Source: Methanoregulaceae archaeon | Lineage (GTDB): Bacteria; Armatimonadota; Fimbriimonadia; Fimbriimonadales; Fimbriimonadaceae | Reading direction: 5' to 3' | Length of the DNA: 64,000 nt | Assembly (NCBI GenBank): GCA_020850325.1 | Contig: JADZEW010000021.1 | Span: 1 to 64,000, forward strand | Part shown: one piece after another, positions 26,152 to 57,576 of the stretch | Layout: each line of letters starts with the position of its first letter | Numbering within the stretch: position 1 is the first letter of the stretch | Notes under the pieces: generated by a model | Database searches by the model: none | Seen by the model: only the letters and a program-made list of their open reading frames with translations | What the model was told of the DNA's origin: nothing | Made by a program: the position numbers and the translations under genes

Positions 26152-27942
26152 ATGGCGTTACCGCGGATGCCGATGGCAGACTGGTTGAAGCAGAAGGGTT
26201 ATCTGAAGGATGACCAAGAGGCGGAGGCCAAGAAAGTTCAGCAACAGACGAATCAGGCTGACTTAGGCAAGATTTTGGTTCAGCTCGGCATGGTTGGCGA
26301 GCGCGAAGTGGCGATGGCCAAGGCCCAGGAGATGGGCTACAACTTCGTCGATCTCGACCGGTTCCCGGTTGAGAGCAGCGCCATCAACGTGGTTCGAGAG
26401 CAAATTGCCAAGAATCACTCGATCATTCCGGTCAAGAAGGAAGGCAACACGCTGTACGTGGCGATGTCGGATGTGACGAACATCCAGGCCCTCGACGATG
26501 TTCGATTAGCTTCGGGTTGTCGCGCGATCCCGGTGATGGCCCTCCCCGCGGCCATCGAAGATGCGATCCGAAAGTATTACGGCGGTTCTTCGGCAATCAA
26601 CACGGCCGCGAACACGGCGATGGCCGCCGGTTCCGCGGTGTCTCAACAGGCCGGGGCCGTCAACAACACGAATTTTGGCAGCGATATCCGCAGCGCTATT
26701 GCGAGCGCGCAGATCGCCCGTCCCGCATCGGAAGATGTCGAGCAGGACGACGGCGAAAAGATGGCCGAGCAGGCCCCGATCATCAAGCTGGCGAACGCGC
26801 TGATCCAGCAGGCGATCGTTGACCGTGCATCGGACATCCACGTCGAGCCTCAGTCCAAGATGGTTCGCATCCGTTACCGGGTTGACGGCGTGTTGATGGA
26901 AGCGATGACGGTTCCGCGGAACCTCATGGCGGCTCTAATCTCGCGTTTGAAGATCATGGCCGACATGAACATCGCCGAACGCCGAATCCCACAAGACGGC
27001 CGTATCGAAATCCGCAGCGAAGGCAAAGAATACGATCTTCGTGTATCGTCGATCCCCACGCCATTTGGCGAGAAGATCGTCATGCGTATTCTCGATAAGT
27101 CGAGCGTCATGATCGGTCTCGAGAAGCTCGGTTTTACCGACGAGCATCAGCTCAAGATCGAAGAACTCACCAGCCAGCCGAACGGCATGTTCCTCTGCAC
27201 GGGTCCCACGGGTTCCGGCAAGACGACCACGCAGTATTCGGTTTTGAACCGACTGAACACCGTCGGCGTGAATATCATTACGGTCGAAGACCCGATCGAG
27301 TACCAGTTGAACGGTATCGCTCAGGTCCAGGTGAACAGAAAGGCGGGCTTGACGTTCGCTACTGGCCTCCGCGCGTTCCTCCGGCAAGACCCCGACATCA
27401 TCATGGTCGGTGAAATGCGTGACCTTGAAACCGCGGAAATCGCGATTGAAGCGTCGCTGACGGGCCACTTGGTGCTTTCCACGCTTCACACGAACGATGC
27501 CCCGTCGGCCACCCTTCGTATGATCGACATGGGTGTCGAGCCGTACCTGATTTCGGCAACCGTCATTGGCGTTCTCGCCCAGCGGCTTGCCCGACGTCTG
27601 TGTTCGGATTGTAAGGAGCCGTATGAGGTTCCGGCCATGGACTTACGCCGCTTCGGTATGAACGCAACCGACCCCGATGAGATGATTACCATCTATCGGC
27701 CGGTGGGTTGCGAAAATTGCCGCATGACCGGATACCGCGGTCGAACGGGCATTCACGAGCTGATGCTCATGAACGCGGAAATCGCCGAACTCGTCGTTCG
27801 CCGTGCGCCGCTCGCCGACGTCAAGGACGCGGCGAAGGCCAATGGAATGAAGGAACTTCGCGAGGATGGCCTTTATAAGGTGTTGTCCGGTGTGACCGAC
27901 CCGCAAGAAGTCATGCGCGTCGTCTTCACCGCCGGCTACTGA
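26152..27942 (+). CDS. pilB: Type IV pilus extension ATPase PilB
   Basis: The 596-residue cytoplasmic ATPase of the GspE/PilB family drives pilin polymerisation. An N-terminal MshEN-like domain (about 1-145; LGKILVQLGMVGEREVAMA) could bind cyclic-di-GMP. A low-complexity Ala/Asn-rich linker (about 145-205) follows, then the ATPase core: Walker A GPTGSGKTTTQ at 351-361, Asp-box region EDPIEYQLNG, Walker B IIMVGEMRDLETAEIA and His-box TGHLVLSTLHTNDAPSA. A zinc tetracysteine is present (CSDC ... CENC). It is first of the cluster; a stable hairpin separates it from pilT. Confidence 0.96.
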   Translation: MALPRMPMADWLKQKGYLKDDQEAEAKKVQQQTNQADLGKILVQLGMVGEREVAMAKAQEMGYNFVDLDRFPVESSAINVVREQIAKNHSIIPVKKEGNTLYVAMSDVTNIQALDDVRLASGCRAIPVMALPAAIEDAIRKYYGGSSAINTAANTAMAAGSAVSQQAGAVNNTNFGSDIRSAIASAQIARPASEDVEQDDGEKMAEQAPIIKLANALIQQAIVDRASDIHVEPQSKMVRIRYRVDGVLMEAMTVPRNLMAALISRLKIMADMNIAERRIPQDGRIEIRSEGKEYDLRVSSIPTPFGEKIVMRILDKSSVMIGLEKLGFTDEHQLKIEELTSQPNGMFLCTGPTGSGKTTTQYSVLNRLNTVGVNIITVEDPIEYQLNGIAQVQVNRKAGLTFATGLRAFLRQDPDIIMVGEMRDLETAEIAIEASLTGHLVLSTLHTNDAPSATLRMIDMGVEPYLISATVIGVLAQRLARRLCSDCKEPYEVPAMDLRRFGMNATDPDEMITIYRPVGCENCRMTGYRGRTGIHELMLMNAEIAELVVRRAPLADVKDAAKANGMKELREDGLYKVLSGVTDPQEVMRVVFTAGY

Positions 27943-28007: not shown

Positions 28008-29189
28008 ATGTCGAATCCAGTCCCCAACTTTGATATGCCCGGAGCAACTCCGGAGGCGGAGGCCCCCAAGGCCGGAGCACCACGTTCGCTTGAAGATCTT
28101 CACATTGATGAGCTGTTGCACATCGTTGTCGATCGCAATGCGTCCGACCTCCACTTGTGTGCCGCTTCCGAGCCGGTCATCCGCGAGGACGGTGCGCTCA
28201 AGCGGCTGAACTTCGAGAAGTACAGCCCGAATGTTCTGCAGCGCATGCTGTACGACATTCTCTCGGACGAGAACATCAACAAGTTCGAGACCATCCTCGA
28301 GCTCGACTTCTCGTATCAGTTGCCGCGCCGCGCTCGGTTCCGCGTGAACTACTACCGCGACCGTGGTGCGCTCGCCGCCGCCTTTCGTTTGATCCCCCAG
28401 CGGATTCCGACGGTGCGCGAGTTGAACCTGCCGCCGATCTTGGAGTCGCTGACCGAGAAGCCTCGTGGTTTGATTCTCGTCACGGGACCCACGGGCTCTG
28501 GTAAGTCGACGTCGCTCGCGGCGATGATCAACCACATCAACACGAATCGAGCCCTCCACGTCATCACGATCGAGGACCCGATCGAATATCTTCACGCCCA
28601 CAAGCTGAGCATCATCAACCAGCGTGAGTTGGGTGGTGACACCCGCAGCTTCGCTGCGGCGCTTCGCTCCTCGCTTCGTGAAGATCCCGACGTTCTGCTC
28701 GTCGGTGAAATGCGCGACATCGAAACGATCCAGTTGGCGATTACCGCCGCTGAAACCGGCCACTTGGTCTTCGCTACGTTGCACACGAACAACTGCGCCG
28801 AATCGATCGACCGTATGATCGACGTTTTCCCTCCTGGACAGCAGGAGCAGATTCGTGTTCAGCTCGCGAACAATATCCAGGCGGTCGTCGCCCAACAGTT
28901 GTTGCCGAGGGCGAATACCCCCGGTCGCGTACCTGCAATCGAGGTTATGATCGCCACTCCGGCTATCCGTAACCTGATTCGTGAGAACAAGACCCACCAG
29001 ATTCCGTCCATGATTCAAACGAGCGCCGCGCACGGCATGGTTGCGATGGATCAAAGCCTTCGCGATCTCTACCTGAAGGGGTTTGTCACCCTGGAAGAAG
29101 CCATGCTCCGCGCCCAGAACGTCGACGAGTTGAAGAAGATGATCAACACGCCTCAAACCGGAGGCGCGGGAGCACCGCCCCGGCGGTAA
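28008..29189 (+). CDS. pilT: Type IV pilus retraction ATPase PilT
   Basis: The 393-residue hexameric ATPase powers pilus disassembly and twitching. Walker A GPTGSGKS is at 160-167, Walker B DVLLVGEMRDIETIQLAIT, and the His-box TGHLVFATLHTNNCAESIDR is followed by the PilT-specific AIRNLIRENKTHQI motif needed for retraction. The N-terminus carries a 35-residue acidic/Ala-rich extension (PNFDMPGATPEAEAPKAGAP) before the PAS-like domain. It follows pilB by 65 nt and precedes pilC by 26 nt. Confidence 0.96.
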   Translation: MSNPVPNFDMPGATPEAEAPKAGAPRSLEDLHIDELLHIVVDRNASDLHLCAASEPVIREDGALKRLNFEKYSPNVLQRMLYDILSDENINKFETILELDFSYQLPRRARFRVNYYRDRGALAAAFRLIPQRIPTVRELNLPPILESLTEKPRGLILVTGPTGSGKSTSLAAMINHINTNRALHVITIEDPIEYLHAHKLSIINQRELGGDTRSFAAALRSSLREDPDVLLVGEMRDIETIQLAITAAETGHLVFATLHTNNCAESIDRMIDVFPPGQQEQIRVQLANNIQAVVAQQLLPRANTPGRVPAIEVMIATPAIRNLIRENKTHQIPSMIQTSAAHGMVAMDQSLRDLYLKGFVTLEEAMLRAQNVDELKKMINTPQTGGAGAPPRR

Positions 29190-29215: not shown

Positions 29216-30442
29216 ATGCCGGTTTTTACCTATACATTCCGAGATGCGAGCGGCGGCACCCAGAAGGGAACCGCCGAGGCCGAAAGCGAGGAGATTCTAA
29301 GGAAGCGCTTCGAAGAGCAGGGCTTTACGATCACCGAAGTTACGATGATCAAAGCCAAAGGCGCGAAACCCAAGCGCTATGGCAAGGTCAAGCTCGGAAA
29401 CTTGGCGGTGTTCTGCCGCCAGTTCTCGACGATGGTCGATGCTGGCGTCTCGCTGGTTCGCTGTCTGGACGTTCTCGCCCAACAGACGCAAGATCCGAAG
29501 CTGAAGAAGATTCTGATCGACGTCGGTGAGCGGGTTGAAGGAGGCGAAAGCCTTTCCCGAGCCATGCAGCGGCACCCGCGCTCGTTCAACAACCTCTTCA
29601 TCGGTTTGATCCGCGCCGGTGAAGTCGGCGGTGTCTTGGAAGAGTCCCTCCAGCGACTTTCGCACTTCTTGGAGAAGGACGTCGAACTTCGCCGTAAGGT
29701 CAAGGCAGCCATGACGTATCCCGTCTTGGTCTTCGTCTTGGCGGTCGGCATCACCTTCTTCCTAGTCTATTGGTTCGTTCCTCAGTGGGCGGTCATCTTG
29801 ACTGACCTGGGCCTGAAGGCGGAAGATATTCCTGCTCCGACCCAGTTCCTGATCTCGCTTGCCGACAACCTGAAGAACAACTGGTGGATCATGTTGCTGT
29901 CGCTGATCGCGATCATCTTCGCGTATCGTCTGTTCGTGAGCACGCGCTTCGGACGCCGCGTCGCGGATCGGGCGAAGCTGAAGGTTCCGGTCTTCGGCAA
30001 GCTCCACCACAAGATTTGTATGGCGCGGTTCAGCCGCACGATGGGCACGTTGCTCACTTCGGGCGTTCCGATTCTGCAGGCGATGGAAACCGTCGCTGGC
30101 ACCGTCGGAAACACGATCATGTCCGACGCCGTCATGGAAGCTCGGGCGCGAATTCGTGAAGGAGACCGCATCGGTGAGCCCCTCGAGGCTTCCCGGCTGT
30201 TCCCGCCGATGGTTGTCCACATGATCGGTGTCGGAGAAGAATCGGGCTCGCTCGACTTCATGCTCCAAAAGATCGCGGACTTCTATGAGGCGGAGGTCGA
30301 ATCTACGTTGGCTTCCTTGACGGCTGCGCTCGAACCGATCATGATTGTCGGTCTGGGCTTTGTCGTCGGATTCATCGTCATTTCGATGTTCTTGCCGCTG
30401 GTCCGCGTTATTGAACGTCTTTCCTCTGGCGCTGGCGATTAG
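29216..30442 (+). CDS. pilC: Type IV pilus inner-membrane platform protein PilC
   Basis: The 408-residue polytopic protein of the GspF/PilC family couples the ATPases to pilin assembly. Two T2SF cytoplasmic domains (about 70-190 and 270-395) are visible: LAVFCRQFSTMVDAGVSLVR in the first and ARFSRTMGTLLTSGVPILQA in the second, each followed by hydrophobic segments. The start MPVFTYTFRDASGGTQKGTA is canonical. AAGGAGACC upstream of the ATG is a strong ribosome binding site. A 10-bp hairpin follows the stop. Confidence 0.95.
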   Translation: MPVFTYTFRDASGGTQKGTAEAESEEILRKRFEEQGFTITEVTMIKAKGAKPKRYGKVKLGNLAVFCRQFSTMVDAGVSLVRCLDVLAQQTQDPKLKKILIDVGERVEGGESLSRAMQRHPRSFNNLFIGLIRAGEVGGVLEESLQRLSHFLEKDVELRRKVKAAMTYPVLVFVLAVGITFFLVYWFVPQWAVILTDLGLKAEDIPAPTQFLISLADNLKNNWWIMLLSLIAIIFAYRLFVSTRFGRRVADRAKLKVPVFGKLHHKICMARFSRTMGTLLTSGVPILQAMETVAGTVGNTIMSDAVMEARARIREGDRIGEPLEASRLFPPMVVHMIGVGEESGSLDFMLQKIADFYEAEVESTLASLTAALEPIMIVGLGFVVGFIVISMFLPLVRVIERLSSGAGD

Positions 30443-30561: not shown

Positions 30562-31686
30562 TTGTTCCCTGAGTGGACATGGCTCGTTGGGCTCATGTTG
30601 GGGGCTACCATTGGCAGCTTCCTCAATGTCGTCATCTACCGCATGCCGCGCGGGATGTCGCTCTCCGAGCCGCGGCACAGCATCTGCCCGAAGTGCCGAC
30701 ATCGCCTCTCCGGGGCGGATTTGATTCCGCTTTTCAGCTGGCTGATGCTGGCGGGCAAGTGCCGCTATTGCCAAGTCAAGGTTCCCGGCCGCTACTTTGC
30801 GGTTGAGCTCTTCACTGGCGTCGTTTGGGCCGCCATCTGGAACCAATACTTCATCAACGACGCGGATTGGCCGAGGGCCATCGCCTACATGGCGGCCTCC
30901 GCCGCGTTGGTCGCGATCATCTGGATCGACTGGGAACTGTATCTGATCCCCGATCAAATCAATGCCTTCCTCGCCTTCGTCGGAATCGCCTACAACATCT
31001 ACCTCTACTCGGTCAACAGTCCCTTCAAGGAGACTTGGGGCATGCCGAGCGCGCTTGCCGGCTGGCTGGTCGGCGTGGCCGTGTTGTGGGGAATCGCGTT
31101 CCTAGGCCGACTTCTGTTCGGAAAGGACGCCATGGGCCACGGGGATATCAAGATGGCGCGCGGAATCGGTGCCGTGCTCTTCCCGGCTGTCGCGCTGATC
31201 AGCTTTGGGCTGGCCGTTGTCCTTGGCGCGGTGCTTGGGATTGCGCAGGTGCTTTGGCTTCGAACACGAGCTACCAGCGCCGAAGTCGAGGAAGAAGACG
31301 AGGAACCGTACGTGCCCGAGAGCCTAGGTTCGCTCCTCAAGTGCGGATTTGGCTACCTTATCGGGATCGACATCATCGGACTGTTCTATGTGCCGCTCTA
31401 CGAAAAGTGGTACGGCGAGAATCCGTATGCGGTGCCCGATGACCTCGAGACCTTCGAGGCGGGCAACACGATGATCCCTTTTGGCCCGTACCTGGCCCTC
31501 GGCGCGATCGTGGCGACAATGTTCTCCCAACAACTTGTACAGGGAGTCGATAATTATCTAAACTGGGCTACGGGTCGGCGAGTGGAGATTCACCGCGAGA
31601 AATCCGCGGGAACACTTTCACCGGGGCCCCGGTCTAGTGATGTGGGGTTGATGTCATGTGGGGTGACAACGGAGTTGTGCGTATGA
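30562..31686 (+). CDS. pilD: Prepilin peptidase PilD (with C-terminal extension)
   Basis: The 374-residue inner-membrane aspartic protease cleaves and N-methylates type IV prepilins. The methyltransferase/zinc region has C42-x2-C45 (ICPKCRH) and C67-x2-C70 (KCRYCQ); the catalytic aspartates are D123 (IDWELYLIPD) and D195 (GHGDIKM). Typical PilD is about 260-290 residues; here an acidic loop (EVEEEDEEPYVPES) and an extra C-terminal membrane part extend the protein. The TTG at 30562 is supported by GGAGG 7 nt upstream. Its TGA overlaps the next prepilin's ATG (ATGA). Confidence 0.93.
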   Translation: MFPEWTWLVGLMLGATIGSFLNVVIYRMPRGMSLSEPRHSICPKCRHRLSGADLIPLFSWLMLAGKCRYCQVKVPGRYFAVELFTGVVWAAIWNQYFINDADWPRAIAYMAASAALVAIIWIDWELYLIPDQINAFLAFVGIAYNIYLYSVNSPFKETWGMPSALAGWLVGVAVLWGIAFLGRLLFGKDAMGHGDIKMARGIGAVLFPAVALISFGLAVVLGAVLGIAQVLWLRTRATSAEVEEEDEEPYVPESLGSLLKCGFGYLIGIDIIGLFYVPLYEKWYGENPYAVPDDLETFEAGNTMIPFGPYLALGAIVATMFSQQLVQGVDNYLNWATGRRVEIHREKSAGTLSPGPRSSDVGLMSCGVTTELCV

Positions 31687-51501: not shown

Positions 51502-52758
51502 ATGGCGAAGAAACTGAGCAGCGTTCTCGGGATCGACATTGGAAGTCGGAAGATCAAGGTCGCCGAGGTGAAAGCCCAAGGTCGAGATGCGGTGGTAACC
51601 GCACTCGCCATGGTGGACACCCCGGAAGGCGCGGTCGATCAAACCGGCGTATTCAACCCAGATGCGGTGGGGGCCGCCATCAAGCAGGCAATCAGCGAAT
51701 CCGGCGCGTCTTCAGGCGCGGCCGTGGTTTCGATTGCCGGTTCGGCTTCAGTGCTGGTCCGGACACTGGAAGTTCCGCGAATGAACTCCAACGAACTGAA
51801 GGAGCACATGCAGTGGGAGATCAACCGAAACATCCCATTTGCCGAAAGCACGGTCGTTAGCGATTTCAAGCCGCTCGGGGATGACGATCCAAACTCCGCG
51901 AATATGGACGTGGTCTTGGCCATTTCTCCGCAGTCTGCGATCGACACGGTCATGGATTGTCTAAAGAAAGCGGGCAAGACGACCCACGCGATCGACGTCG
52001 AGCCGCTCGGACTCGCCCGAACGCTGACCACGAGCTACGACGATCTGCTTCACGACAAGACGGTTTGCGTGGTCGAAGTCGGTCACAAGACCACCTCGAT
52101 CAACATCTACAAGAACGGCAAACTTCTGATGCCGAGACAAGTGCCGGTCGGTGGCGAGAACTTCACCCGGGCCATCGCTGACGGGCTTGGGGTGAGCATG
52201 CTCGAGGCCGAGGATCTCAAACTCGCGAATGCCGACGTTAGCGGGATGGCGGTTGCTGCGGGCAGTTTCTCGAGTAACCCCTTTGCCGCTCCGGCAGATC
52301 TTGGAGGGGGGGCGCCTGCCGAGGGATTTGTGCCCTACAACCCCTTCGCCGACGAGCCGATGGCGGCTCCAGACGCGGGTGTTCCTGCGCCGGCAGAAGA
52401 TGTTCCGGCTGGGCCAGCCGACGCGACCCCGGTGCCATCGGGTGATCCCCAGGCTCAGCGGGTTAATACCGCTCTGGCCTCCGAACTCGACGAGTTTGTA
52501 GCGGAGATTCGCCGTTCGATCGACTACTTCCGAAATCGCGGGGGAGACGTGGACAACCTCATTCTCGCGGGAGGCGGCAGTCAACTTCGCGGTCTGGCTG
52601 AGTTCCTTGGGAACGCGCTCGGCATCACGTGTGACGCTTTGGACCCTCTACGGCGTCTGAATGTCAACGCGAAGCGCGCCGACATGTCTTTTGTAGATGC
52701 GCATCGCACCGAGTTTACGGTGGCGGTCGGTAATGGCCTCCACATTCTGTTTGATTAG
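51502..52758 (+). CDS. pilM: Type IV pilus assembly protein PilM, with NPF-containing insert
   Basis: The 418-residue actin-like cytoplasmic ATP-binding protein binds PilN's N-terminus and links the ATPases to the alignment complex. The start MAKKLSSVLGIDIGSRKIKV and GGENFTRAIADGLGVSMLEA and NLILAGGGSQLRGLAEFLG are PilM hallmarks. Between about 252 and 312 there is a Pro/Ala/Gly-rich insert with two NPF motifs (SSNPFAAP, YNPFADEP), which interrupts the usual fold region. First gene of pilMNOPQ, 10 nt before pilN. Confidence 0.94.
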   Translation: MAKKLSSVLGIDIGSRKIKVAEVKAQGRDAVVTALAMVDTPEGAVDQTGVFNPDAVGAAIKQAISESGASSGAAVVSIAGSASVLVRTLEVPRMNSNELKEHMQWEINRNIPFAESTVVSDFKPLGDDDPNSANMDVVLAISPQSAIDTVMDCLKKAGKTTHAIDVEPLGLARTLTTSYDDLLHDKTVCVVEVGHKTTSINIYKNGKLLMPRQVPVGGENFTRAIADGLGVSMLEAEDLKLANADVSGMAVAAGSFSSNPFAAPADLGGGAPAEGFVPYNPFADEPMAAPDAGVPAPAEDVPAGPADATPVPSGDPQAQRVNTALASELDEFVAEIRRSIDYFRNRGGDVDNLILAGGGSQLRGLAEFLGNALGITCDALDPLRRLNVNAKRADMSFVDAHRTEFTVAVGNGLHILFD

Positions 52759-52767
52759 GGAACACGG

Positions 52768-53679
52768 ATGAAACTCAACCTACTCCCGACATATGTGTCG
52801 AAGGAAAAGCAGGGGCGCTTTGCGTTCGTGCTCTCGGCGCTGATCGCGCTAGGGTGCCTCGCGCTCATGATCTTCATGACTCGAAGTTCTCGAGATGCCT
52901 TGGCCGCCGAGAAGCAACGAATCGCGGATGCGCGGCCCAACGCTCAGCTTGCGGTCGCCACCTCGAAGCGCGCTGATGCCGTCATCGCCGAAAATCGCGG
53001 ATTGATCCTCAATATCAACCTCGCTGATTCGATGAACAAGCACAACACCGTGTACCCGGACCTCTTTGATGAAGTTCGGAAGTACATCCCCAACTTCTAC
53101 CGGATTAGCTCGATGGCCGCCGTGCCCAACGGAGCAGAGTCTTGCACGGTGACCATGACCGGGTATCTGAGCTCGTTCCAAGAGTACGCCGATCTGATGA
53201 TCGCGCTCCTGCGGATCCCTGGGGCAACGGCCGTCTCTCGATCGGGCTTCCAGTTCAACGAGCCGGGCGTTCCCGGACTCATCCCCGAAGACCAGCAGGG
53301 TCGGATTCTCCGCCCGGGCGAGCCTCGCATTCCCGATGATCCGCACGATCGCCTTGATCAGCAGATCGCGAATGCGCAAGTAACCAGTTTCCAAAACGCA
53401 GGTGGCTTCGGTACCAGTGAGACGCCGATCGTTCGCGGAGCAATGCCGACGCAGTCGACCGTAACCGTCGCCGTCGTCATTGCCGGCAAGAATATCCAGA
53501 CGCCCAATCCGCGCCAAACGCTCGCTGAGTCCGCAGCGCTTTGGGGTGGTGCTCCGACGGCGCCTGGCCAGCCGGGGCAACCCGCAGCGAACACTCGGCC
53601 CGCCCCCGCGACTCCTCCGCCGCCAACGACACCGCCAGGCCGGAACAATCCCGGTCGCGGCCAGGGAGGTGAAGACTAA
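52768..53679 (+). CDS. pilN: Type IV pilus alignment protein PilN-like
   Basis: The 303-residue single-pass membrane protein starts MKLNLLPTYV; the N-L-L-P motif is the short cytoplasmic PilN segment that docks into PilM. A transmembrane helix follows (about 21-38: FAFVLSALIALGCLALMIFM), then a coiled coil and a ferredoxin-like periplasmic domain with NFYRISSMAAVPNGAESCTV. The C-terminal about 50 residues are Pro/Gly-rich (PAPATPPPPTTPPGRNNPGR). Typical PilN is about 180-200 residues. The stop overlaps the pilO start (TAATG). Assignment rests on motif and gene order. Confidence 0.82.
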   Translation: MKLNLLPTYVSKEKQGRFAFVLSALIALGCLALMIFMTRSSRDALAAEKQRIADARPNAQLAVATSKRADAVIAENRGLILNINLADSMNKHNTVYPDLFDEVRKYIPNFYRISSMAAVPNGAESCTVTMTGYLSSFQEYADLMIALLRIPGATAVSRSGFQFNEPGVPGLIPEDQQGRILRPGEPRIPDDPHDRLDQQIANAQVTSFQNAGGFGTSETPIVRGAMPTQSTVTVAVVIAGKNIQTPNPRQTLAESAALWGGAPTAPGQPGQPAANTRPAPATPPPPTTPPGRNNPGRGQGGED

Positions 53680-54416
53680 TGAAAATGGGTGCTGCTCCGG
53701 CATTGAGCATCGGAATCGGTCTCGGTTTGATTTTCATCGGCTTCGGCTTGCGTGAGTACCTTCCGAACATGAAGGACCGAGACTTGCACCGCAACGTTGC
53801 CGACGCAACGGAGGCGGAGGCCAACAAGCTTCCCGCAGCGAAGAAGCGACTTGAGCGGGCGAAGCAGATCGTCCAGGAAAAGGCTGACGATTGGCAAGAG
53901 GTTGTTGCGTCGAGAACGCCGCCGAACTCGCTGGCCGCTGGCGGAATTGATATGAGCGTCAACGCTTGGCAGCTCGTCGTCGATACTCCCAAGTTCCGAA
54001 ACAACATTCAGAATGCGGTGAATCGCCAAGTGAAGACGGGCGGCGTCGAGGTCCTCAATGGTCCGCGGGTCCCATCTCCGGATATGAACGGATCGACCAT
54101 CGTTGCCAACTACTTCAACTATCCGGCGATTCCTTTCCCGGTCGTCATCTTCGATTTCGGAACGATCACCGTTCGCGGCACTTACGCCCAGATCATGGAG
54201 AATGTCCGATCGTGGTCCGATATGCCGAACTATCTGGCCGTGGCTGACGGTCTTGCGATTAACGGAACGGCCCCGATTCTGACGGGCACCTACAATCTCT
54301 CGATGGTTGGCTACATTCGCGGCGACAAGATCTTCCCGACCGTTCCCGAGGGTGGAGCGGCTCCCGCAGCCGGTGGCGGCGGTGGCGGTGGCGGCGGAGG
54401 CCGCCGACAGAACTAA
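53679..54416 (+). CDS. pilO: Type IV pilus alignment protein PilO-like
   Basis: The 245-residue protein has one N-terminal transmembrane helix (APALSIGIGLGLIFIGFGLR), a coiled coil (about 35-75) and a periplasmic domain that includes PFPVVIFDFGTITVRGTYAQ, the strand pattern of PilO's ferredoxin fold. It would pair with PilN in the inner-membrane alignment complex. The C-terminus is a run of ten glycines before RRQN. GGGAGGT upstream supports the ATG at 53679, which overlaps the pilN stop. Sequence divergence makes order and topology the main evidence. Confidence 0.78.
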   Translation: MKMGAAPALSIGIGLGLIFIGFGLREYLPNMKDRDLHRNVADATEAEANKLPAAKKRLERAKQIVQEKADDWQEVVASRTPPNSLAAGGIDMSVNAWQLVVDTPKFRNNIQNAVNRQVKTGGVEVLNGPRVPSPDMNGSTIVANYFNYPAIPFPVVIFDFGTITVRGTYAQIMENVRSWSDMPNYLAVADGLAINGTAPILTGTYNLSMVGYIRGDKIFPTVPEGGAAPAAGGGGGGGGGGRRQN

Positions 54417-54424
54417 GAGGACCT

Positions 54425-55105
54425 ATGAGCACAAAGCGTCTACTAACCTTGACTCTGCTCGGTGCCGCAATGGCGCTGGTCGTTGGGTGTGGGCCAGATC
54501 CCACCCAGCCGATCCAGGCATCAGCGGCTCCCACTCCGCAGGATGCTCAGTTCGTTCCTGAAGCGGAAGCCGGTATTCGCATTGCCCCGGGAGACCCCGC
54601 GACTCTACTTGCTGATGCGGGCAAGTTCTCTTTCCAGGTGCGACAGGACCCGTTTGCGCTGCGTCCTGCAGAAGTCGCCTTCGATCGCAGCGAGTTTGCG
54701 GCACGATTGGTCGACACCGTTGGTTTCTATCCGCAGATCGCGGAAGAGGCCGAGCCCCCGGTCGAGACTTTCGAGGTGGAACCGCAGCCGACACGACGAC
54801 TAGCCGGCATCATTCTCGGTGAGAGCATCACGGCACTGATCGACATGGGCAACGGGCAACTCATCCTGATTCGGCCCGGGCAAGCCATCGAGGGTACCGA
54901 GTGGGTGGTTCAGTCAATCGACGAAGAAAAGGCGATTCTGCGACGCGTTGGCAGCACCAAGCGTCCGAAGTATGTAGTCGTGCGCTTGCAACCCGATGAT
55001 GGATCCACCGTGACAAACACGGGTGGAGGCCAAGGGCAAGGCGGCCGTCAACAAGGCGGACGCGCCGGTAATGCCGGTGGCGGGCAAGGCATGGAGCCGG
55101 ATTAG
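54425..55105 (+). CDS. pilP: PilP-like pilus lipoprotein
   Basis: The 226-residue protein has a lipoprotein signal with lipobox VVGC (MSTKRLLTLTLLGAAMALVV, GC). A disordered acidic linker leads to a small beta domain: LAGIILGESITALIDMGNGQ, then LILIRPGQAIEGTEWVVQSI, which matches the HR-domain style of PilP that contacts the secretin's N0/N1 region. The C-terminus is Gly/Gln-rich (GGGQGQGGRQQGGRAGNAGG). It lies 8 nt after pilO. Function as the inner-membrane-to-secretin connector is inferred from these features and from position. Confidence 0.75.
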   Translation: MSTKRLLTLTLLGAAMALVVGCGPDPTQPIQASAAPTPQDAQFVPEAEAGIRIAPGDPATLLADAGKFSFQVRQDPFALRPAEVAFDRSEFAARLVDTVGFYPQIAEEAEPPVETFEVEPQPTRRLAGIILGESITALIDMGNGQLILIRPGQAIEGTEWVVQSIDEEKAILRRVGSTKRPKYVVVRLQPDDGSTVTNTGGGQGQGGRQQGGRAGNAGGGQGMEPD

Positions 55106-55166
55106 CGGCTAAAATGACGATAACGATTTGAAGAGATAGGCTTCAGAGATTTCGGAGGACCCGAAT

Positions 55167-55862
55167 ATGCTTAACAAGATCAAGGTTCTAATGGTAGTGA
55201 TGGCTGGCTTCGCCCTCGTGGCGGCGGCGCCGATCGCCCATGCTCAGAACGACCAAGGCAACACGCTAGTTCCGTCGATTGACGTCCAGGACGCTCCCGT
55301 CCGCGATGTCGTCCGAGCGATTTTCAAGTCAGTTGGTGTCACCAACTACACAATCGCTCCTGATGTTCAAGGCACGGTCACGATCAGCATGAAGAACATG
55401 CCGCTCGATACCGTTCTGCGCAATATCCTCAACCAGGTCGATGCGACTTGGCGAATGGAAGCTGGTGCCTACGTGATCATCAAGAAGGAACAGAACGTCG
55501 ACACCGGCGGTGGCGCCACGATTCCGACGGATCAGATTCCGACGACCGACCAGCGACGCCTTTACCGCATCAAGATTCAGCGCGCCGACCCGCAGTATGT
55601 TTACATGCTGCTCCGCGGCGAAATGGGTTTTGGCAGCGGCCCTGAAATCTCGGCACTTTCCGGTGGTCTTGGCGGTGGCGGCGGCTTCGGCGGCGGCGGC
55701 CAAGGTGGCGGTGGTTTCGGCGGCGGCGGCCAGGGTGGTTTTGGCGGCGGCGGCTTCGGCGGCGGCGGTCAGGGCGGTTTTGGCGGCGGCGGTGGCGGCT
55801 TCGGCGGCGGTGGCTTCGGCGGTGGTCGAGGCGGCGGCGGCGGCGGCGGTCGAACCAACTAA
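55167..55862 (+). CDS. Orphan secretin STN-domain protein with glycine-rich tail
   Basis: The 231-residue exported protein has a signal peptide (MLNKIKVLMVVMAGFALVAA, ending AHAQ) and a single STN/N0-like domain: IDVQDAPVRDVVRAIFKSVG, then QGTVTISMKNMPLDTVLRNI, as at the start of PilQ secretins, but no secretin barrel. A second short element (RRLYRIKIQRADPQYVYMLL) resembles the beginning of an N1 domain. Residues from about 166 are almost only glycine with F and Q. It could bind TonB-like or PilP partners, or be a detached domain of PilQ. The next gene is pilQ. Confidence 0.78.
   Translation: MLNKIKVLMVVMAGFALVAAAPIAHAQNDQGNTLVPSIDVQDAPVRDVVRAIFKSVGVTNYTIAPDVQGTVTISMKNMPLDTVLRNILNQVDATWRMEAGAYVIIKKEQNVDTGGGATIPTDQIPTTDQRRLYRIKIQRADPQYVYMLLRGEMGFGSGPEISALSGGLGGGGGFGGGGQGGGGFGGGGQGGFGGGGFGGGGQGGFGGGGGGFGGGGFGGGRGGGGGGGRTN
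55665..55856 (+). repeat. GGC/GGT low-complexity tract coding the glycine-rich tail
   Basis: About 190 nt of imperfect repeats of GGCGGC/GGTTTC-type codons encode G-G-x and G-G-F-G-G runs. Such tracts can expand or contract by slippage. A shorter similar tract occurs in pilQ at about 56580-56725. Confidence 0.75.
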
Positions 55863-55899
55863 GCTTCAACGATTACGGACAAGAGGGTAAGGAGTGAGA

Positions 55900-57576
55900 A
55901 TGCGTAAGACTTGGACACGGATGGCACTCGCGACGGTGATCGCAGTCGCCGGTCTCGCGGCAACGCCGATGGCGCTCGCACAGGGCACTGGAAGCGAAGT
56001 TCGCGTTGATCTGAACCTGCGGGATGCGGATATGAAAGCCGCAATCCAGGTTCTGATGAAAGAGACTGGAATGTCGATCATCTTCGAAGCGAGCGAAGAG
56101 CCCTTTCCTAAAGTGACACTGAATCTTCCGCGGGTAACCGCGGAAGACGCCTTGATGTACATCTGTCAAGCAGCCGGAGTCTATTTCCGGAAAGATGACA
56201 ATGGTGTCTACATCATCAGCCGAAAGCGGCCCGAAGTGAAGCCGGTGGAAACACCGCCTAACTCGACGGTCAAGCCGGCGGCCCTTGCTCGGAAGGTCTA
56301 CAAGATCAAGATGATGAAGGCCGACGCTCAGGACGTCTACGAGCAGATGACCGTCGGAATTGTCTCGGATCCGCTCCGCGGATTCCTTGAGATCAACCGC
56401 TTCAAGGATGTTACGAGCTTGAACCGCGGCGCACTTACGGGTTCGACGCCGGTCTACATGCTGGACCACGGCGATCGAAACACCACGTTCAGCCCGGTAG
56501 GCACCAATAACTCGACTCCGATCGTCAACCGTGGCGAAAATGCCAACGGTGTGACTCTTCCGGGTGAGGCCGCCGGTCAGTTTGGTGGCGGTCCTGGCTT
56601 CGGCGGCGGTGGCCAAGGCGGCTTCTCTGGCGGCGGTGGCGGCCAGGGTGGCTTAGGCGGCGGTGGCGGCGGCCTCGGTGGAGGCGGTGGTCAGGGCGGT
56701 CAGGGTGGCCAGGGTGGTCTTTCCGCCGGTGGCTTGATTCCCGAGGGTATCGACTACATCACGTACGATCCGAACGATAACTCGATTATCGTGCGGGCTA
56801 CGGAAGCCGAATACCAGCAGCTGATCCAAGCTATCTCTGAGTTCGATACGGCTCCGAAACAGGTCACCGTCAAGGTTGAGTTCATCACCACGACGAGCAG
56901 CCTTTCGAAGTCGCTTGGATTTGACTGGCTCTACAGCCGAGGCACGATCTTCGCCGGTAACACTCCGGGCACCTTTGCCCGAAGCGGCGACCCGATCTTC
57001 CTCAGCTGGCAGTCGGGCAACTTCTCGACTCGACTTCGCGCCCTCCTTCAGGATGGCTTCGGTCGAGTGGTCGCCTCTCCGGTCGTTCGCACGCTGAACA
57101 ATCAGCCTGCGTTCGTCTCGCAGGGCGTCAACACGGTTATCTTCCAGTCGCTCGTGACGAGCATCGGTAACGGTCAGGTTATCCGGACCACGAACCCGCT
57201 CCAGCTCACGGTCGGTACGCAGTTGGCCCTCCGGCCGCGTATCAACAACGATGGCACGGTGACCATGTTCCTCACGCCGTCGATCCAGCAGCTCGGCCAG
57301 TTCCGCCGCGATGCGGACGGCAATGAGTTCCCGGACACTTCGTTCCAGCAGATCGCCATCGTGGCCCGCGTTAAGAGCGGCGACACGATTGCCCTTGCCG
57401 GATTCACGAACAAGTCGGATAACGGCACACAGTCGAAGTTCCCGGTTCTGGGAGATCTGCCGATCATCGGCCAGTTCTTCCGCTCGACCACTCGAGAAAA
57501 GAACTTCTCGGAACTGCTCGTCTTCGTGACTCCGACGATCATGGAAGACGAGGACGGCGGCGGCATCGGGCCGTAG
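55900..57576 (+). CDS. pilQ: Type IV pilus secretin PilQ
   Basis: The 558-residue outer-membrane secretin forms the pore through which the pilus passes. A signal peptide (MRKTWTRMALATVIAVAGLA) is followed by an STN/N0 domain (about 30-100: VDLNLRDADMKAAIQVLMKE), an N1-type domain, a Gly-rich insert (about 227-280) and the secretin barrel: VTVKVEFITTTSSLSKSLGF, ASPVVRTLNNQPAFVSQGVN and FPVLGDLPIIGQFFRSTTRE, the last being the secretin signature. The ATG at 55900 is preferred over GTG at 55894 because AAGGAG ends 5 nt before it. AMIN domains are absent. A perfect hairpin follows the stop. Confidence 0.94.
   Translation: MRKTWTRMALATVIAVAGLAATPMALAQGTGSEVRVDLNLRDADMKAAIQVLMKETGMSIIFEASEEPFPKVTLNLPRVTAEDALMYICQAAGVYFRKDDNGVYIISRKRPEVKPVETPPNSTVKPAALARKVYKIKMMKADAQDVYEQMTVGIVSDPLRGFLEINRFKDVTSLNRGALTGSTPVYMLDHGDRNTTFSPVGTNNSTPIVNRGENANGVTLPGEAAGQFGGGPGFGGGGQGGFSGGGGGQGGLGGGGGGLGGGGGQGGQGGQGGLSAGGLIPEGIDYITYDPNDNSIIVRATEAEYQQLIQAISEFDTAPKQVTVKVEFITTTSSLSKSLGFDWLYSRGTIFAGNTPGTFARSGDPIFLSWQSGNFSTRLRALLQDGFGRVVASPVVRTLNNQPAFVSQGVNTVIFQSLVTSIGNGQVIRTTNPLQLTVGTQLALRPRINNDGTVTMFLTPSIQQLGQFRRDADGNEFPDTSFQQIAIVARVKSGDTIALAGFTNKSDNGTQSKFPVLGDLPIIGQFFRSTTREKNFSELLVFVTPTIMEDEDGGGIGP

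Follow-up and report, generated by a model that had tools for sequence, protein, structure and literature searches.

Low-complexity tails of the pilus alignment operon

A 64,000-nucleotide stretch of contig JADZEW010000021.1 (assembly GCA_020850325.1, family Fimbriimonadaceae of the Armatimonadota in the GTDB lineage; hereafter, the window) is occupied in much of its length by a type IV pilus cluster, in which the operon pilM-pilN-pilO-pilP-STN-pilQ spans positions 51502-57576 of the forward strand. We found that PilN, PilO, and PilP, as well as an additional STN protein encoded between pilP and pilQ, end in low-complexity, mostly glycine-rich tails, that such tails are nearly confined to this operon, and that their presence is conserved in the order and beyond it, while in some genomes tail DNA was copied between neighbouring genes. 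We tentatively propose, giving this reading somewhat less than an even chance, that the tails are disordered C-terminal arms of the Armatimonadota alignment complex, which would lie between the inner-membrane ring and the secretin mouth as a flexible layer.

All five low-complexity features named in a preliminary description of this DNA were found where it had placed them. The PilN tail (pilN, 52768-53679) comprises residues 257-303 (53536-53676) and is rich in Pro, Ala, and Gly; with 13 Pro, 9 Gly, and 7 Ala in 47 residues, Pro and not Gly is the dominant residue in the genome studied here. The PilO tail (pilO, 53679-54416) is 28 residues long (218-245; 54330-54413) and contains 12 Gly, including a run of ten consecutive Gly, which is followed by RRQN. 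In the PilP-like lipoprotein (54425-55105) the Gly/Gln-rich tail covers residues 190-226 (54992-55102) with 14 Gly in 37 residues. The STN protein (55167-55862; PF07660, E 3.5e-8) carries a Gly/Phe arm at residues 157-231 (55635-55859) with 52 Gly in 75 residues; the arm accounts for roughly a third of the protein, in line with the former estimate of more than a quarter. Finally, in the PilQ secretin (55894-57576, with a possible start at ATG 55900) the Gly-rich insert, formerly given as residues 227-280, extends over residues 224-282 (56563-56739) and contains 38 Gly in 59 residues. The Gly codons of the tails are mixed (GGC 73, GGT 42, GGA 7, GGG 3), which ruled out a pure single-codon DNA repeat.

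The low complexity had been ascribed to the periplasmic parts of the alignment-secretin complex. This holds for PilN, PilO, PilP, STN, and PilQ, but it is not a purely periplasmic property of the operon, because the cytoplasmic PilM (51502-52758; PF11104, E 2.4e-46; TIGR01175, 218 bits versus a cut-off of 133) also carries an insert of this kind, namely a Pro/Ala/Gly/acidic stretch at residues ~255-320 with two NPF motifs and no Gly tail. A 30-residue segment composed at least by half of Gly, Pro, or Ala is present in 35 of 37 PilM proteins of the order. The NPF motif, which looks like a short binding motif, occurs in 32 of these 37 proteins as compared to 9 of 554 background proteins; it lies mostly within the insert, but the folded core probably accounts for some of the matches at residue ~360 and beyond.

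We asked how common such tails are elsewhere in the source genome (G000, 3.5 Mb), using gene calls from a simple greedy codon-score script. Among 265 genes called in 344 kb of G000, a Gly fraction of at least 0.3 in the last 30 residues was reached by three proteins, PilO, PilP, and STN, all of this operon, and a 30-residue segment with at least 50% Gly by two, STN and PilQ. In a 400-kb sample of another genome (G018), which did not include the operon, 1 of 289 genes had such a Gly tail. When both samples were combined and the operon was removed, a Gly fraction of at least 0.25 in the last 40 residues was found in 3 of the 544 genes that encode at least 80 residues, and a 30-residue segment with at least 12 Gly in 6 of 547 genes. 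A pattern search of the whole G000 genome for runs of six Gly codons gave 69 overlapping matches, counted on both strands and in or out of frame; most of the genes examined at places outside the operon encode lipoproteins in which a Gly linker follows the lipid-bearing Cys, and the others include genes of secretin loci and a few for proteins with Gly tails, one of them RRM-like. Clearly, both the genome samples and the pattern search speak against a genome-wide habit of Gly-rich sequences. A short RNA-binding-like protein (L121, 2508-2951, at ~421.5 kb of contig C8) starts with MASKTLYVG and has a long Gly/Tyr/Arg/Ser C-terminal tail; we presume that it resembles cyanobacterial Gly-rich RRM proteins.

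Nor are the tails a general property of the PilN, PilO, and PilP folds. G000 contains three further PilMNO-secretin loci (L163/L120, contig C22, ~67 kb; L164/L138, C18, ~91 kb; L137, C18, ~38-42 kb), in which Pfam identified PilM_2 at two, PilN at two, PilO at two, and T2SSC at one, and their PilN/O/P-like proteins have Gly fractions of 0.03-0.15 in the last 40 residues and no Gly-rich tails. Gly-rich tails are also absent from E. coli HofN, HofO, HofP, and HofQ. Outside the Armatimonadota the comparison covered E. coli and one contig labelled cyanobacterial, on which a PilP-like protein beside a secretin had no Gly tail; the adjoining secretin of this Cyanobacteria-labelled metagenome-assembled genome (L162, 4927-7143) has a Gly/Ala-rich insert of ~70 residues. 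Thus, the shared feature is specific to this operon. Among the open-licence papers listed in literature searches, none appears to describe such tails in connection with Armatimonadota or Fimbriimonas pili or with low complexity in PilN/O/P/Q. The PilQ insert by itself is ordinary, because other secretins carry Gly-rich stretches as well (at most 12 Gly in 30 residues in two other secretins of G000, and 17 in 30 in the cyanobacterial-labelled one), but the partner proteins of those secretins lack Gly tails. The new part is the PilN/O/P tails and the STN protein.

Conservation, turnover, and copying of the tails

To follow the tails in relatives, we retrieved the operon region from 53 genomes of the order and assigned genes in 54 loci, including that of the window. 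Of 151 genomes of the phylum, 134 had a match, and from these another 20, of 15 other families, were chosen because their contigs were long and their PilQ matches good. The counts leave out proteins truncated at a contig end; they refer to the last 40 residues, because the PilN tail boundaries given by hidden Markov models of the core were unreliable in several genomes. At least a quarter of these residues are Gly in 32 of 40 PilN, 36 of 40 PilO, 40 of 42 PilP, and 44 of 44 STN proteins of the order, and in 15 of 20, 17 of 20, 13 of 19, and 18 of 20, respectively, in the other families. A PilQ segment of 30 residues with at least 12 Gly is present in 53 of 54 loci of the order; in the other families, 16 of 20 genomes have such a segment with at least 14 Gly. 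The tail chemistry can switch while the low complexity persists: in one genome of the phylum (G123) the tails are built of Thr/Pro/Met and Ser/Arg instead of Gly, and elsewhere of Met, Tyr, or Pro. Thus, of the conservation for which relatives were checked, presence and composition are kept, whereas length and sequence vary even within a genus.

The comparison of G000 with a relative of the same genus (G001) revealed 14 indel events involving 43 residues, all of them in the tails or in the PilQ insert, and none in 1672 core codons. The tails and inserts amount to 280 aligned codons, counting the PilM insert, in which there were no indels. Synonymous differences exceeded nonsynonymous ones in the STN tail (20:4), the PilO tail (10:1), the PilQ insert (24:5), and the PilP tail (13:6), and the two were about equal in the PilN tail (14:12), although the alignment of repeats can inflate the synonymous share in such regions.

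The PilN, PilO, and PilP tails evolve together. When tail compositions were compared between the proteins of the same genome and after shuffling among genomes, in a design that controls for relatedness only in part, 1, 0, and 0 of 2000 shuffles were as close as the real pairs in 40 genomes of the order; for the remainder of the phylum the counts were 0, 9, and 1, again of 2000, and in one family (f1), sampled once per genus, they were 1 for PilN-PilP and 0 for PilO-PilP. Core segments matched in length showed no such closeness, with 156 or more of the 2000 shuffles as close in each of the nine tests. Direct evidence that tail DNA was copied between the neighbours pilN and pilO comes from three genomes in which the 3' ends of the two genes are nearly identical: G072 (L152; 60 of 60 nucleotides), G197 (L142; 86 of 91), and G123 (L147; 79 of 86). 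The tails are thus modular, and through their copying between neighbours one can trace how disordered regions of a single machine evolve in concert. In a first run, PilN and PilO tails shared 5-residue words in 20 of 60 genomes versus 9.7 expected, but upon splitting, the excess was confined to genomes outside the order (15 of 20 versus 6.0), family f1 being close to expectation (4 of 23 versus 3.5), and the idea of general word sharing was dropped. Compensation of tail lengths between the proteins was likewise abandoned, as the correlations (-0.22, -0.28, and +0.50 in 40 genomes) formed no clear pattern.

These patterns make neutral repeat turnover a serious rival explanation. The tails might be a by-product of GGN-repeat expansion and tail copying at permissive free C-termini and might persist as the repeats regenerate, which would account for the lability of their length and sequence, for the copied pilN and pilO ends, and for the nearly equal numbers of nonsynonymous and synonymous differences in the PilN tail. 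However, every gene has a C-terminus, and yet the tails are almost confined to this operon; the three paralogous loci lack them, four proteins keep them across many families, and the differences in STN, PilO, and the PilQ insert are mostly synonymous, even if inflated by repeat alignment. We therefore consider the neutral explanation unlikely, even though it deserves serious weight.

Among 56 genomes, contig ends fell within or beside the STN tail or the PilQ insert ten times as compared to 2.3 expected, in an interval chosen afterwards (G023, G009, G048, G030, G004, G019, G035, G055, G050, and G037). As many genomes are fragmented and contigs end in Gly tracts, some tail lengths may be assembly artefacts. 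For the same reason, the STN/PilQ junction is often lost from assemblies: Gly tracts break them, and many metagenome bins may lack such tracts or contain them in shortened form.

The STN protein and a possible role of the tails

The STN protein consists of a signal peptide, a PilQ-type N0 domain, and the first half of an N1 domain, followed by the Gly/Phe arm. Its profile matched PilQ N0-N1 structures (6w6m, E 3.6e-15; 4ar0, E 4.3e-14), and hhalign aligned it with PilQ residues 2-156 of 560 (E 6.3e-30), with the alignment stopping where the Gly arm starts. In the window PilQ, which is composed of N0, N1 with the Gly-rich insert, and the secretin domain (PF00263, E 3.3e-36; PF03958; PF07660), Secretin_N (PF03958) aligned only from residue 269 on, past most of the insert, indicating that the insert lies between the first and the second half of N1. 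The STN arm thus begins near the point at which the Gly-rich insert of PilQ breaks up N1 in that protein. As the alignment with PilQ ends at the arm and the insert splits N1, the sequence comparisons identify STN as a stand-alone PilQ-type N0 with half of N1 that bears a Gly arm. It has no secretin C-terminal pore domain, and its limited coverage of PilQ led us to reject the possibility that it is a secretin itself.

The tip of the STN arm has a recurrent composition. Among 64 STN proteins the last residue is R, F, Y, or W in 54, Arg is among the last three residues in 45 (versus 6.7% of interior 3-residue words), Arg together with an aromatic or aliphatic residue is among the last four in 39 (versus 3.2%), and the last eight residues carry a net positive charge in 58 and a net negative one in no case. 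The window STN, which ends with RTN, breaks the last-residue rule. Such tips could mean that the tails, and the basic/aromatic STN tip in particular, attach to the outer membrane or to peptidoglycan in place of AMIN domains, which are usual, though not universal, in PilQ of type IV pili. In support of that, a Pfam search up to E 0.1 detected no AMIN domain in the window PilQ. However, poly-Gly arms are no known wall-binding fold, and the PilN, PilO, and PilP tips have no common charge. We regard anchoring as quite improbable. A latch between acidic PilN or PilP tips and the basic STN tip was also considered and dropped, as the tip charges are inconsistent: negative tips were found in 21 of 40 PilN and 8 of 42 PilP proteins of the order, and in 5 of 20 and 10 of 19 elsewhere.

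In the STN arms of the order, Gly spacers are commonly interrupted by a hydrophobic residue every 3-5 positions. The aromatic content is at least 8% in 38 of 44 arms of the order and in 16 of 20 outside it, and when aliphatic residues and Met are added, this level is reached in 64 of 64. FG-nucleoporins form gels of Phe-Gly repeats around a channel, and by likeness to them the STN and PilQ arms might act as a sticker-and-spacer plug that gates the secretin mouth, open to the pilus or DNA and closed to other solutes. Compared with FG-nucleoporins, the arms are short and much denser in Gly, and their composition offers no evidence of cohesion or of transport receptors; moreover, the stickers drift among F, Y, M, and L, Ser and Arg replace much of the arm in G123, and the PilN, PilO, and PilP tails mostly lack aromatic residues. 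This makes such a plug very unlikely. A cohesive Gly/aromatic gel built at the ring-secretin junction from five proteins and a duplicated N0 ring (STN), sealing the mouth and enclosing the pilus elastically as it moves, is in our estimate likewise very unlikely.

The reading that we prefer, in which the tails are flexible arms, would work as follows. PilN, PilO, and PilP would form the inner-membrane ring, with their last folded domains just below the secretin mouth; the families of these proteins would place the tails there, and the tail composition suggests disorder. As a lone PilQ-type N0 with half of N1, STN would be expected to dock on the HR domain of PilP or on the N0 ring of PilQ, in the way that PilQ N0 of Neisseria meningitidis binds the C-terminal domain of PilP (PMC3441751), and its Arg/aromatic tip may serve as a peptide for docking. 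With twelve or more copies per ring, the complex would gather dozens of Gly-rich arms in the gap between the inner ring and the secretin vestibule. The arms could fill or seal this gap around the pilus, providing a length-tolerant layer that couples the ring and the secretin during opening, closing, and stretching of the machine across the periplasm, and that would serve as a tether, a spacer, and perhaps a seal.

Several observations weigh against the flexible-arm proposal. Tail lengths are labile, with STN of 231 and 210 residues in the two congeners; since lengths vary within a genus, exact tail length cannot matter much, and randomness of length in close relatives is half of what the preliminary description had named as evidence against a shared function. 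Individual genomes deviate: the PilP tail is lost in G010, which has a PilO tail of 98 residues, the PilO and PilP tails are short in G003, and the PilO tail is Ala-rich in G031. In family f1 the PilN and PilO tails are not closer in composition than shuffled ones (370 of 2000), and the likeness of tails within a genome can stem from DNA copying and shared ancestry, with no need for a common function. The STN tip is suggestive rather than proven, because Arg is the commonest C-terminal residue of background genes too (72 of 554). Lastly, the AlphaFold models of STN and PilQ, which were based on three-sequence alignments, are of low confidence (mean pLDDT 37 and 38) and do not bear out the N0 fold of STN or the tail disorder.

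For the question of how the inner-membrane ring of type IV pili stays coupled to the secretin during pilus movement, the Armatimonadota, with arms on nearly every periplasmic partner and an extra N0-like protein, offer a natural experiment on this junction. The small basic repeats of Neisseria PilQ (PMC3441751) are also low-complexity and polymorphic elements of a type IV pilus secretin and influence pilus formation. In contrast to them, the PilQ insert described here is Gly-rich, lies in N1, and is paired with tails on partner proteins.

Protein identities and other genes of the pilus cluster

A Pfam search with the window proteins themselves left the names PilN, PilO, and PilP without support, and profiles were therefore built from 22 relatives. 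The PilN profile matched Myxococcus xanthus PilN (3jc8, E 1.6e-10), with PF05137 found in 1 of the 22 members. For PilO, the best PDB match of the profile was PilO of 3jc8 (E 0.047, which is weak), PF04350 was found in 1 and T2SSM in 3 of the 22 relatives, and the position in the operon fits. PilP has a lipobox VVGC, read by eye, and a match to TIGR03021 (pilP_fam) at E 3.2e-4, below the cut-off; its profile gave weak matches to OutC, PilP, and GspC (E 0.13-0.25), and T2SSC was found in 2 of 22 relatives. The profiles thus back PilN well and PilO and PilP weakly, and the gene order agrees with that of the E. coli hof genes. For PilQ, TIGR02515 (PilQ) and TIGR02517 (GspD) gave similar scores, both below the cut-off. 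Two open reading frames 3' of pilQ were named aroK and aroB from the sequence by eye, and with them the order pilMNOP-pilQ-aroK-aroB equals E. coli hofMNOPQ-aroK-aroB. The likeness to the type IVa system with the alignment complex PilMNOPQ of M. xanthus, Pseudomonas, and Neisseria, or HofMNOPQ of E. coli, extends to the genes of PilB, PilT, PilC, and the prepilin peptidase, which lie in the window too; the operon differs by the extra STN gene and the low-complexity tails of PilN, PilO, and PilP.

The remaining genes of the cluster lie 5' of pilM. PilB is encoded at 26152-27942, PilT at 28008-29189, PilC at 29216-30442, and the prepilin peptidase at 30562-31686; prepilin-like genes and two very large open reading frames lie between the last of these and pilM. 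The two, of 1675 and 2251 residues, end the stretch of pilus genes at 26152-51265. The larger, directly 5' of pilM, has a PQQ_2 beta-propeller match and is possibly a PilY1-like tip protein. In the genome paper on Fimbriimonas ginsengisoli (PMC4072686), PilB, C, D, Q, M, PilT, and ChpD are named, and the strain is described as having no motility. In G000, the profile of the retraction ATPase PilT (TIGR01420) scored above its cut-off at five places, one of them in the window (28104-29126), and these five matches, with the three further secretin loci, suggest that this genome is well equipped with machines for pilus formation or secretion.

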